Of a stretch of DNA of 7,424 nucleotides, positions 4,087 to 7,209 are shown one piece after another (position 1 is the stretch's first letter; every line of letters starts with the position of its first letter). Under the pieces are notes generated by a model. That model was not told where the DNA came from, ran no database searches, and worked only from the letters and a program-made list of their open reading frames with translations. The stretch is from Thermoplasmata archaeon (lineage in GTDB: Archaea; Thermoplasmatota; Thermoplasmata; UBA184). The stretch spans positions 1 to 7,424 of the forward strand of contig DAHVAA010000072.1 in assembly GCA_027314845.1 (NCBI GenBank), read 5' to 3'. A program made the translations under genes and the position numbers.

Positions 4087-4941
4087 ATGATCGAGATCCG
4101 GTTCCACGGCCGGGGAGGCCAAGGGGCGGTCGTCGCCTCCGAACTCCTCGCGCAGGCGGCCTTCCTCGATGGGAAGCAGCCGCAGAGCTTCCCGTTCTTT
4201 GGAGTGGAGCGGCGGGGAGCACCGGTCACGGCCTATGCGCGTGTCGACGACCGACCGGTAGGGCTCCGCACCTCGATCACCCATCCGGACGTCGTGGTCG
4301 TCCTCGACCCCGGCCTGCTGGCCACGGAGGCGGTCACCGAGGGCCTGCGGCCGAACGGCCTCCTCCTCGTTAACACGCCGCACGGACCCGAATCACTCGC
4401 GGCGCCGAAGGGGATCCGGCGCGCGGCCGTGGACGCCACGCACATCGCGCTGGCCCACAACCTCGGCACTCCGATGCTGCCGATCGTCAACACCGCGGTC
4501 CTCGGTGCGCTCTCCCGGGCGACCGGGGTCGTATCGCTGGAAGCGCTCAGCCGAGCGATCGGCCAGTTCGTCCCCGCGCATCCGGAGGAGAATCGTCTCG
4601 CCGCCCAGGACGGCTTTCTGGGAGTGAGCGTGACCGAGGCGGGCCCCTCGCCCCCGCTCCCGCCGACGAAGGAGCGAGCCCCCCCGCTCGTGCTCCCAGA
4701 AGGCCCGATCGCCACCCTCTCGAGCGAAACGATCCACACCGCCGCATGGAGGACCTTCACGCCGGTGATCCACCTCGACCGCTGCACGAAGTGCAACTTC
4801 TGCTGGAAGTTCTGCCCGGATGACGCGATCGAGTTCGACGCCCGCGGCTACCCCGTGCTCCGACTCGCCTACTGCAAGGGCTGTGGGATCTGTGCCGCGG
4901 AGTGCCCTCCGAAGACGATCGAGATGGTCGCGGAGGCCTGA
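4087..4941 (+). CDS. porGD: 2-oxoacid:ferredoxin oxidoreductase, fused gamma-delta subunit
   Basis: The protein joins two subunits that are separate in many archaea. Residues 1 to about 185 are the gamma subunit. It opens with [19 protein letters not shown] (4-22) and continues with [16 protein letters not shown] (35-50) and VVVLDPGLL (70-78). A proline-rich linker (about 186-207) leads to a delta-type ferredoxin domain with two [4Fe-4S] motifs: Cys233, 236, 239, 243 and Cys263, 266, 269, 273, each CxxCxxCxxxC. The domain passes electrons from the TPP centre to external ferredoxin. The gene is first in the operon and is followed 10 nt later by the alpha gene. Translation starts at the ATG behind GGAGG (4078-4082), which is embedded in a hairpin. 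Pyruvate and branched-chain 2-oxoacid enzymes share these motifs, so the substrate is open. Confidence 0.93.
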
Positions 4942-4946
4942 AGGAG
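4941..4946 (+). promoter_or_regulatory. Shine-Dalgarno that sets the alpha-subunit start
   Basis: AAGGAG overlaps the last base of the gamma-delta stop codon and sits 5 nt before the ATG at 4952. It decides that start over a longer in-frame opening at 4820, which would read 44 residues out of frame through the iron-sulphur domain of the gene before. Confidence 0.8.
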
Positions 4947-4951
4947 CGAAG

Positions 4952-6136
4952 ATGACGAAGAAAGTCCTGTCCGGTAACTACGCGCAGTCCTACGCGGCCC
5001 TGCTCGCTCGGGCTCAGGTCATCTCCGCCTACCCGATCACACCCCAGACCTCGATCGTCGAGAAGCTCGCGGACTTCGTAGCGTCGGGCGAACTGAAGGC
5101 GCAGTATGTCAAGGTCGAAAGCGAACACTCCGCGCTGCAGGTCGTGATCAGCGCGGCCGCGCTCGGCGCCCGTACCTACACCGCGACCTCGAGCCAGGGC
5201 CTCTTGCTCATGCACGAGCTTCTCCACTGGGCGAGCGGGATGCGCGCGCCGATCGTGATGGGGGTGATCAACCGGGCGGTCGCGCCCCCCTGGAACATCG
5301 GGGCCGACCACACGGATACGATGAGCCAGCGGGACACCGGCTGGATCCAGTTCTACGCCGAGAGCAATCAGGAGGTGCTGGACACCGTCCTCGAATCTTA
5401 CCGGCTCGCCGAGCACCCCGACGTGCGGCTCCCCGTCATGGTGACCGAGGACGCGTTCTACCTCTCGCACACCGTCGAGCCGGTCGATGTTCCGGAGCCG
5501 GAAGCGGTCGACCGTTTCCTCCCTCCGCGCGAACCCCATGCCGTGCTGGTCCCGGGGGAGGCCACGCGGCTCGGCTCGTTCACCGGGCCCGACCACTATG
5601 TCGACTTCCGCCACCAGGTGGGGGAGGCGATGGAGCGCGTTCCCACGATCCTCGCGACAGTCGAGCAGGAATTCGAGCGCGCTTTCGGTCGGTCGCACGG
5701 CGGGGCCCTCCCGACCTATCGAACCGAGGACGCGGACGCGGTGCTCGTCACGATGGGCACCTCGACCACCACCGCGCGGTCCGTGGTCGACGAGCTCCGG
5801 GCGGCCGGCCGCCGGGTCGGCCTCGCGAAACTGCGCCTCTTCCGGCCCTTCCCGGACGATGCGGTGCGCGAGCTCGCTCGCCATGTCGCCCGGATCGGTG
5901 TGGTCGACCGGTCCTACACCTTCGGCCGGATGGGTGCGGCGGCGACCGAGGTCGGGGCCGCGCTCTACACGGCGCCGCACCGCCCCCAGCTAACGAGCTT
6001 CCTTGCCGGGATCGGTGGGCGAGACGTGACCCCCGCCGAGGTCCGGGGTATGTTCGACACCCTGCTCTCCGGGACCTCGCCGACGACCCACTGGGAGGAC
6101 CTCGAGATGGAGGGGGTGACCACGACCTATGGCTAA
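4952..6136 (+). CDS. porA: 2-oxoacid:ferredoxin oxidoreductase, alpha subunit
   Basis: This 394-residue subunit carries the pyrimidine (PYR) half of the TPP site and the substrate pocket. YPITPQTSIVEKLA (27-40) contains the substrate-contacting threonine region. Glu58 in ESEHSA matches the glutamate that activates TPP. TSSQGLLLMHE (79-89), NRA (107-109, with the conserved Arg108) and DTMSQRDTGWIQFYAE (122-137) are signature stretches of domain I. LVTMGTSTTTAR (265-276) begins domain II, with LRLFRPFP (294-301) and VDRSYTFGRMGA (318-329) following. The length is normal for the four-subunit type archaeal enzymes. Its last codons overlap the beta gene by 8 nt (ATGGCTAA), which suggests coupled translation. 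Pyruvate (Por) is the default reading; 2-oxoisovalerate (Vor) is possible given the divergent aminotransferase. Confidence 0.94.
   Translation: MTKKVLSGNYAQSYAALLARAQVISAYPITPQTSIVEKLADFVASGELKAQYVKVESEHSALQVVISAAALGARTYTATSSQGLLLMHELLHWASGMRAPIVMGVINRAVAPPWNIGADHTDTMSQRDTGWIQFYAESNQEVLDTVLESYRLAEHPDVRLPVMVTEDAFYLSHTVEPVDVPEPEAVDRFLPPREPHAVLVPGEATRLGSFTGPDHYVDFRHQVGEAMERVPTILATVEQEFERAFGRSHGGALPTYRTEDADAVLVTMGTSTTTARSVVDELRAAGRRVGLAKLRLFRPFPDDAVRELARHVARIGVVDRSYTFGRMGAAATEVGAALYTAPHRPQLTSFLAGIGGRDVTPAEVRGMFDTLLSGTSPTTHWEDLEMEGVTTTYG
6109..6119 (+). promoter_or_regulatory. Shine-Dalgarno of the beta-subunit gene
   Basis: GGAGGGGGTGA lies inside the end of the alpha gene, 9 nt before the ATG at 6129. 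Its GGTGA part matches the archaeal anti-Shine-Dalgarno. It supports the start that overlaps the alpha stop codon. Confidence 0.65.
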
Positions 6137-7034
6137 GCTCACGATCCCGGCTCAGGAACTGATGTACAGCGGCCACGCCGCCTGCCCGGGCTGCGGGCCC
6201 GCGCTCGCGATGCGGCTGCTTCTGAAAGGGCTTGGCCCGCGCACGCTCGTTTCGATTCCGGCGTGTTGCTGGACGGTCATCGCGACGCCGTACCCGACGA
6301 CCGCGCTGCGCGTGGGAGTGCTCGACACCGCGATCGAGGCCACCGGGGCGTCGATCTCGGGACTCCGGGCCGCGGCGGATGCGCTGGGTCTGGAGAACGT
6401 GAACATCGTGGGGTTTGCGGGCGACGGCGGCACGGCCGACATCGGGTTGCAGGCGCTGAGCGGGATGCTGGAGCGGCGGACGAACGCGATCTACGTCATG
6501 TACGATAACGAGGCGTACATGAACACCGGCATCCAGCGGAGCGGCGCGACCCCGTGGGGTGCCTGGACGACGACGACCCCGGTGTCTCCCGGGGTCCCGG
6601 GGAAGCCCGAGCCGAAGAAGGATGTCATGGCGATCGTTCTGGCGCACCGACCCGCCTACGCCGCCACGCTCAATCCGGCGTTCCCGGAGGATTTCGACCA
6701 AAAGGTCGAGCGTGCGCGCGACATCGCCGGACCGCGGTTCCTCCACGTCTTCGCGCCCTGCCCGCCGGGATGGAAGTTCGACAGCGCGCAGACGATCGCG
6801 CTCGGTCGGCTCGCGACCGACACGGGCGTCTTCCCGCTCTACGAGGTCGTTGACGGCCGCCTCCGCATCACGCGGAAGACCGGGGAGCTGAAGCCGGTCG
6901 CGGACTATCTGGCGGCGCAGGGACGCTTCCGGCACCTCGCCTCCGACGACGTCGCGCGGATCCAGGCGCAGGTCCGGGGCGACTGGGAACGGTTGCAGAA
7001 GCGCGAGCGCGAGGACCTGAGCCGGGCCCATTAA
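6129..7034 (+). CDS. porB: 2-oxoacid:ferredoxin oxidoreductase, beta subunit
   Basis: This 301-residue subunit binds the diphosphate of TPP and the proximal [4Fe-4S] cluster. HAACPGCGPALAMR (16-29) gives Cys19 and Cys22. ACCW (45-48) adds Cys46 and Cys47, and APCPPGW (209-215) adds Cys211, which together match the cluster ligands of PorB proteins. The TPP/Mg motif runs from GDGG (98-101) to YDNEAYMNTG (125-134), with Asp99 and Asn127. SGATPWGAWTTTTP (138-151), PKKDVMAIVLAHRPAYAAT (162-180) and RLATDTGVFPLYE (227-239) are further family hallmarks. It completes the operon, so all functional parts of the complex are encoded. No T-rich terminator is visible in the 72 nt before the next tRNA gene. 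Confidence 0.95.
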   Translation: MAKLTIPAQELMYSGHAACPGCGPALAMRLLLKGLGPRTLVSIPACCWTVIATPYPTTALRVGVLDTAIEATGASISGLRAAADALGLENVNIVGFAGDGGTADIGLQALSGMLERRTNAIYVMYDNEAYMNTGIQRSGATPWGAWTTTTPVSPGVPGKPEPKKDVMAIVLAHRPAYAATLNPAFPEDFDQKVERARDIAGPRFLHVFAPCPPGWKFDSAQTIALGRLATDTGVFPLYEVVDGRLRITRKTGELKPVADYLAAQGRFRHLASDDVARIQAQVRGDWERLQKREREDLSRAH

Positions 7035-7075: not shown

Positions 7076-7083
7076 CTAAATAG
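7076..7083 (+). promoter_or_regulatory. TATA box of the initiator tRNA gene
   Basis: CTAAATAG is centred about 27 nt upstream of the mature 5' end of the tRNA at 7107. The tRNA therefore has its own promoter, and the primary transcript would have almost no 5' leader. Confidence 0.75.
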
Positions 7084-7106: not shown

Positions 7107-7209
7107 AGCGGGGTAGGGTAGTCAGGAAAACGGTCGACGCTGTCGGTCGTCCTGAAATCCCGACGGGCTCATAACCCGTAGATCCATGGTTCAAATCCAT
7201 GCCCCGCTA
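7107..7209 (+). tRNA. Initiator tRNA-Met (CAT) with a D-loop intron
   Basis: The acceptor stem AGCGGGG (7107-7113) pairs with CCCCGCT (7202-7208), giving the A1:U72 pair typical of archaeal initiators. The anticodon stem ACGGG/CCCGT (7163-7167, 7175-7179) has the three G:C pairs next to the loop CTCATAA that mark initiator tRNAs; the anticodon CAT is at 7170-7172. The T arm is CATGG, TTCAAAT, CCATG (7185-7201), the discriminator is A7209, and CCA is not encoded. The gene is 103 nt long. Removing the intron at 7129-7156 leaves 75 nt with a normal 18-nt D arm (7116-7128 joined to 7157-7161). The ORF just downstream looks like an integrase, so the tRNA 3' end is a likely attachment site. Confidence 0.93.
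7129..7156 (+). other. 28-nt tRNA intron in a bulge-helix-bulge
   Basis: CAGG (7123-7126) pairs with CCTG (7151-7154) as the 4-bp central helix. It is flanked by two 3-nt bulges, AAA at 7127-7129 and AAA at 7155-7157. Inside, ACGGTCGAC (7130-7138) pairs with GTCGGTCGT (7142-7150) over 9 bp, including two G:U wobbles, around the loop GCT. Cutting after the second base of each bulge removes exactly 28 nt and restores an 18-nt D arm. The position is just before base 21, not the canonical 37/38. The outer helix is weak, so the motif is of the relaxed type. Confidence 0.85.

Follow-up and report, generated by a model that had tools for sequence, protein, structure and literature searches.

A predicted non-canonical D-loop intron in the initiator tRNA-Met gene of a Thermoplasmatota order and the EndA type of its carriers

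An initiator tRNA-Met gene close to the end of a 7,424-nt stretch of DNA from a Thermoplasmata archaeon (contig DAHVAA010000072.1; the whole stretch is called the window below) has a D arm of 46 nt (7116-7161), as had been predicted, rather than the usual 18. The locus raises the question of whether the additional letters are an intron that is removed from a functional transcript and, if so, which type of splicing endonuclease removes it. The original prediction had placed a 28-nt intron at 7129-7156, between bases 20a and 21; these coordinates proved exact, and the spliced form is a 75-nt tRNA-Met(cat). The features of the locus are as follows.

6129..7034, + strand: upstream neighbour, 2-oxoacid:ferredoxin oxidoreductase beta-type protein (TPP enzyme C-terminal domain)
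7076..7083, + strand: TATA-box-like CTAAATAG, 24-31 bases upstream of the tRNA
7107..7209, + strand: initiator tRNA-Met gene, with A1 at 7107 and A73 at 7209
7107..7128, + strand: 5' exon, bases 1-20a, 22 nt
7123..7126, + strand: 5' strand of the central helix (CAGG), exonic, holding G18 and G19 and pairing with 7151-7154
7127..7129, + strand: 5' bulge AAA, with the predicted cut at 7128/7129
7129..7156, + strand: intron, 28 nt, between bases 20a and 21, assigned from the sequence and from the same site in relatives
7130..7150, + strand: intron hairpin, a 9-bp stem (7130-7138 with 7142-7150) and a GCT loop
7151..7154, + strand: 3' strand of the central helix (CCTG), intronic, pairing with 7123-7126
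7155..7157, + strand: 3' AAA, within an internal loop, with the predicted cut at 7156/7157
7157..7209, + strand: 3' exon, bases 21-73, 53 nt, comprising the D-stem 3' strand, the CAU anticodon arm, the T arm, the acceptor 3' strand, and A73

The hallmarks of initiator tRNA-Met are a CAU anticodon, an A1-U72 pair, and three G-C pairs in the anticodon stem, and the window tRNA has all of them. When the intron was excised in silico, ARAGORN called a tRNA-Met(cat) of 75 bases. In the unspliced gene, ARAGORN found no tRNA at the locus, and the match to the Rfam tRNA model, placed in a false register, scored 27.8 bits against a cut-off of 29. Annotation tools can overlook or misname such genes; with introns allowed, ARAGORN called the initiator of one relative (L223 of genome G086) tRNA-Arg(cct). 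The inner stem of the window intron had all nine pairs formed, two of them G-U. Among 500,000 shuffles of the intron letters, the 4-bp helix arose in 1.7% and the helix together with a 9/9 stem in none, and the folding energy of 7108-7209 had a z score of -4.1 (200 shuffles).

The splicing motif had been described as a perfect 4-bp helix with two AAA bulges. At the 5' site, the AAA bulge, the 4-bp central helix, and then the 9-bp inner stem were all present, whereas the 3' AAA lay in an internal loop and was not a bulge. On the 3' side, the D-stem GGG/CCC was split from the central helix by the internal loop UAGU/AAAU, indicating that the motif has a relaxed predicted 3' site of the bulge-helix-loop type and is no complete bulge-helix-bulge (BHB). 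The initiator of G086, whose letters are identical to those of the window, had an exon-side helix of 0 bp and did not take the strict hBHBh' form. In addition, the predicted minimum-energy fold was one pair off the textbook register (-46.2 versus -43.2 kcal/mol), which counts against the splicing model. The cut sites in the list above were predicted from the sequence together with the rule, stated in PMC4307357, that the cut falls between the second and third bulge bases. Both junctions read AAA, and the mature tRNA stays the same when the two cuts move together within AAA...AAA; the sequence therefore does not pin down their exact positions.

A pattern scan of genome contigs returned at least 120 loci, mostly bacterial. 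The bacterial loci among the matches listed were rejected, as they look like ordinary bacterial initiators with a chance AGCGG upstream. At least six Thermoplasmata loci from the scan had an insert at the same base (L025, L042, L077, L078, L113, and L117). One of them, L042, is AcS4-93, a genome tabulated in the paper that names Lutacidiplasmatales (PMC9287336); the main text of that paper contains no word starting with "intron". The order searched below is that of G002, the genome of L042, and is presumably equal to Lutacidiplasmatales, the Thermoplasmatota order to which the window probably belongs. The ferredoxin-oxidoreductase beta gene of the window had 90% identity to its counterparts in G193 and G157, where an interrupted tRNA likewise follows about 70 bases downstream. 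In the window, this gene lies in a 2-oxoacid:ferredoxin oxidoreductase cluster (4087-7034), in which a POR domain and 4Fe-4S domains are fused in one gene and two genes with thiamine-diphosphate domains follow. Elsewhere in the window, 1328-2434 encodes a divergent peptidase M29-like protein (21.7 bits against a Pfam cut-off of 27).

Exact-pattern searches of 106 genomes of the order showed that the initiator was interrupted at 20a/21 in 67, uninterrupted in 13, and without a match in 26, which may be incomplete drafts or have divergent letters; no genome had both forms. The intron is a clade-wide trait and not one confined to the gene context of the window. The 67 carriers comprised 62 found with the interrupted pattern and five found only with a broader pattern, which also takes uninterrupted genes and matched 73 of the 106 genomes. 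In 400 genomes of the class, 68 matched the interrupted pattern (62 in the order, five outside it, and one, G388, a chance upstream hit that was excluded from the count). Four carriers were first printed without exon 1, and in all four it was found directly upstream. Judged from the match spans, the insert is 26-32 nt long within the order. A second intact initiator in the genome had been named as evidence that would speak against the intron; by exact pattern, an uninterrupted copy was found in none of the 67 carriers. One genome, G304, had two interrupted initiators with identical printed letters on separate contigs (C76 and C112), perhaps through assembly duplication.

Interrupted initiators were also seen beyond the order. 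Five from other Thermoplasmata (L282-L286) had inserts of 35-36 bases at the same D-loop site. The central helix was good in L282; in L283-L286 it had three of four pairs, and the motif was absent from the predicted fold. A common origin with the intron of the order was considered and is not claimed, as four of the five inserts combine three of four helix pairs with a non-matching fold. The initiators of an uncultured archaeon (LFW-242_1, L022), a Nitrosopumilaceae MAG (L061), and a Woesearchaeota genome (L074) seem to carry interruptions within their 5' halves too, at sites that differ from this one.

The history of the intron was compared with an EndA tree of 50 rows, taken from 52 loci of which two were unreadable by motif, and rooted at the midpoint; G143, G100, and G093 were flagged as long or unusual. 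All 32 carrier rows, together with four of unknown state, lay on one side of a branch with support of 100/98, and all 12 uninterrupted rows lay on the other. This single branch suggests one gain of the intron without visible loss as the simplest reading.

Covariation was examined in 23 distinct 102-base sequences obtained from 36 initiator matches, 13 being left out for length or pattern. The exons of these relatives varied only at base 9, although the collecting pattern fixes most letters of the 5' exon and many exon letters overall and thereby partly constrains this invariance. The exon columns free of the pattern (bases 27-28, the variable loop with the 5' T-stem, and the last 12 bases) were nevertheless invariant in all 23. 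In the inner stem, 92.3% of cells were paired and eight of the nine pairs showed two-sided change; none of 500 shuffles reached the observed covariation values on any of five measures. When the register was slid, 34-49% of cells were paired, compared with 97.9%. Two observations count against this support: slid registers still gave three to six pairs with two-sided change (versus eight), and one inner-stem pair was unpaired in 9/23 sequences and another in 4/23. The central helix had four of four pairs in all 23 sequences and was invariant (AGG is fixed by the pattern, CCTG is free), so the covariation supports the inner stem only. A single central-helix change, from C-G to U-A, was seen in another group, in L282.

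Upstream of the gene, 46 distinct stretches had a TATA-like block at a fixed distance: columns -29 to -25 were 86-97% A+T, whereas the surrounding columns were mostly rich in G+C. Column -13 also reached 89% A+T, and the stretches otherwise mostly diverged. Of these stretches, 37 came from the main clade; the nine from outside it were three uninterrupted members of the order, five other Thermoplasmata, and L020. The L020 contig is filed as Candidatus Calescibacterium, a bacterium, and has an archaeal-looking initiator with a TATA-like box upstream; it is probably a binning error.

The splicing proteins were then considered in relatives. In each of six carrier genomes, one reading frame had two PF01974 and two PF02778 matches, and one RtcB per genome was found in all six relatives tested. 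Across the order, EndA matches were found in 96 of the 106 genomes, two in 91, one in four (G245, G339, G402, and G405), and three in G348. These results point to a single fused EndA of the alpha'2 type, on the plan of Archaeoglobus fulgidus. The original prediction of a broad-type endonuclease was not borne out by this architecture, which is that of a fused alpha'2 enzyme without CSL or ASL, the Crenarchaea-specific and ARMAN-specific loops to which broad specificity is attributed. The stretch in which these loops would lie was read in 41 loci, of which 38 were readable and 32 distinct; it was 16 residues long in 31 of the distinct sequences, the 32nd being a fragment. Neither a CSL nor an ASL insert was found in the 50 aligned EndA rows, carriers and non-carriers alike. 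At this stretch the relatives' EndA aligned without a gap to the A. fulgidus structure 1r0v, whereas 3p1y, which we take to be the A. fulgidus EndA with a CSL built in, required one.

The alpha'2 class is further characterised by a first unit with an incomplete catalytic triad; in an alignment to M. jannaschii EndA, the Tyr and His presumed to be catalytic were absent from the first unit of the relatives' enzyme, and the Lys position was apparently kept. Compared with A. fulgidus, this unit seems to contain an insert, which is nothing new, as the M. jannaschii subunit spans the same region with hardly a gap. Residue differences that might explain tolerance of the intron were sought at the 97% level between 32 carriers and 12 non-carriers and were set aside, because only two columns separated them, a W in the first unit and an L in the second. 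Both lie outside the loop stretch and so offer no candidate loop. Near the active site, an ASL has 11 residues and a CSL 15-18 (PMC12397907). The alpha'2 enzyme is tabulated as narrow in PMC6379350, is said to cut canonical BHB only in PMC4033280, and is described as limited to canonical BHB in PMC12397907.

Other tRNA introns were surveyed in G086, where 40 tRNA genes were resolved from 41 Rfam matches and one match (L195) was left over. Of the 40 genes, 17 were interrupted, 13 of them at non-canonical sites. Four introns lay in the anticodon loop (Tyr, elongator Met, Trp, and Leu-TAA), 11 in the T loop near 59/60 (L198, L201, L205, L208, L209, L215, L216, L218, L219, L220, and L222), and two in the D loop (the initiator and Arg-GCG). 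This count is probably a lower bound, because besides the leftover match in L195 no G086 gene was detected for six tRNAs: His, Lys(TTT), Glu(TTC), Pro(TGG), Pro(GGG), and Leu(TAG). The D-loop intron of tRNA-Arg(GCG) (L206) has about 33 bases and lies ahead of G18. In the T-loop introns, the central helix was TTCG/CGAA or similar with one mismatch, and the T-stem mostly served as a contiguous outer helix. This exon-side helix comprised 4-5 bp in nine of the 11 and, in the T-loop register, only a single pair in Glu and Gln. In eight of the 11 the T-loop solution ranked first, with Ser-GGA displaced by one base from 59/60; in Gly, Glu, and Gln it ranked second. Most of the T-loop motifs are of the strict form or close to it. 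With a contiguous outer T-stem in most of these motifs, the usual rules could suffice for an alpha'2 enzyme to cut most of the T-loop introns. The real challenge to those rules would be the D-loop pair, which has no contiguous exon-side helix.

T-loop introns were also found in other genomes. A loose pattern for them was rejected as a basis for counts, as a reversed control also matched in many genomes. Of 14 places drawn from this pattern, three were tRNAs with T-loop introns, three had unclear solutions (L295, L297, and L300), and eight had none. The three (L296, L299, and L302) formed at least three of the four helix pairs and had a continuous exon helix of 5 bp, with only 5/7 acceptor pairs in L299. 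L296 and L299 are tRNA-Lys genes of two other Thermoplasmata, and L302 is a tRNA-Gln gene of G027, which belongs to the order and has an uninterrupted initiator.

By all the comparative evidence at hand, the window's initiator gene appears functional. We consider it highly probable that the transcript from its own TATA box carries a non-canonical 20a/21 intron and is spliced as proposed here. The single alpha'2-type EndA would cut at the two AAA sites, and RtcB would join the exons to the 75-nt tRNA. The central helix would have to be undone, as it engages G18 and G19, on which the elbow of the mature tRNA depends. The intron would have been gained once, by insertion into the D loop in the ancestor of the main Lutacidiplasmatales clade, and then retained because a motif with a non-contiguous exon-side helix is acceptable to the lineage's enzyme. 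In support of this, bases 16-25 of the predicted spliced initiator read TCAGGAAATCCC, identical to the stretch of the native Thermoplasma acidophilum initiator tRNA to which a probe printed in PMC4307237 is complementary. The description of alpha'2 enzymes as narrow is a point against splicing. If instead the insert were retained, the mature initiator would have an enlarged D arm with a 28-nt hairpin. The stability of the stem and the same insert length in many relatives agree with this reading, but G18 and G19 would stay sequestered in the CAGG/CCTG helix, the AAA sites recur on both sides, the stem varies in sequence and in length (26-32 nt) with the free exon columns constant, and 13 relatives do without the insert; we regard retention as very improbable. 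It is scarcely credible that the gene is a decayed or surplus copy and that the true initiator lies elsewhere in the genome, since the pattern-free exon columns show no decay in the 23 sequences, none of the 67 carriers has an uninterrupted exact match, and the TATA box is conserved; the evidence on second copies comes from relatives of the window.

The remaining alternative concerns the enzyme and leaves the inferred splicing as it is. The context of a full-length pre-tRNA may let any alpha'2 EndA cut a bulge-helix-loop, so that the enzyme of the carriers would be an ordinary one. The A. fulgidus EndA removes a bulge-helix-loop intron at 37/38 from full-length pre-tRNA (PMC6379350), and no EndA loop distinguishes carriers from non-carriers. 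On structural grounds, however, such recognition would rely on the elbow of the mature domain, which with an insert in the D loop should not be able to form while G18 and G19 are paired with the intron, and we hold an ordinary enzyme to be possible but not the favoured explanation. Splicing by an alpha'2 EndA of unusual tolerance has a further consequence: an enzyme without CSL or ASL would cut a relaxed D-loop bulge-helix-loop site, the lysine-bearing loop would be dispensable for broad specificity, and translation initiation in the main clade would depend on this cut. We see the arguments for and against this extended proposal as evenly poised. The strongest claim that these sequence data allow, short of proof, is that a loop-less alpha'2 EndA would process relaxed motifs at sites other than the anticodon loop.

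Intron diversity has been linked to lineage-specific loops of EndA in reviews and in a structure paper of 2025 (PMC4033280, PMC6379350, and PMC12397907). A clade whose one visible initiator gene has its interruption outside the anticodon loop and whose alpha'2 EndA has no such lineage-specific loop offers a direct and cheap test of the model of intron-EndA co-evolution. In the literature searched, which mostly did not extend to subscription papers, there was no report of a D-loop intron in Lutacidiplasmatales or of an initiator intron at 20a/21. Position 20/21 is listed among the non-canonical archaeal sites (PMC4090602). D-arm introns are described in Aeropyrum pernix tRNA-Thr and Sulfolobus tokodaii tRNA-Glu, with cutting demonstrated for the latter (PMC4307357), and 92-95% of tRNA genes are interrupted in three Atabeyarchaeia/Freyarchaeia genomes (PMC11291895).

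The Lutacidiplasmatales intron resembles the non-canonical BHB introns of Crenarchaeota, Nanoarchaeota, Thaumarchaeota, and some Asgard archaea in being a short D-loop insert with a bulge, a 4-bp helix, an inner stem, the same cut rule, and a mature tRNA restored by its removal. In contrast to those introns, it occurs in Thermoplasmatota, with a predicted fused alpha'2 EndA without CSL or ASL, in the initiator, and at one site throughout a clade. Korarchaeum cryptofilum, which PMC4033280 singles out as the one archaeon with both an alpha2 EndA and non-canonical introns, likewise combines a homodimeric-type EndA with such introns; its enzyme is said there to carry a specific loop, whereas the Lutacidiplasmatales enzymes have none. 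Initiators that require splicing are also found in Thermofilum pendens, where the initiator gene is permuted and has a 37/38 intron (PMC3978253), and in S. tokodaii, where all three CAU tRNAs are predicted to be interrupted (PMC4307357). The T. pendens case differs in its permutation and its anticodon-loop intron. In S. tokodaii, 21 of the 24 interrupted genes have the intron at 37/38 and the exceptions named in PMC4307357 are other tRNAs, the initiator not being among them, whereas the Lutacidiplasmatales initiator is interrupted in the D loop.
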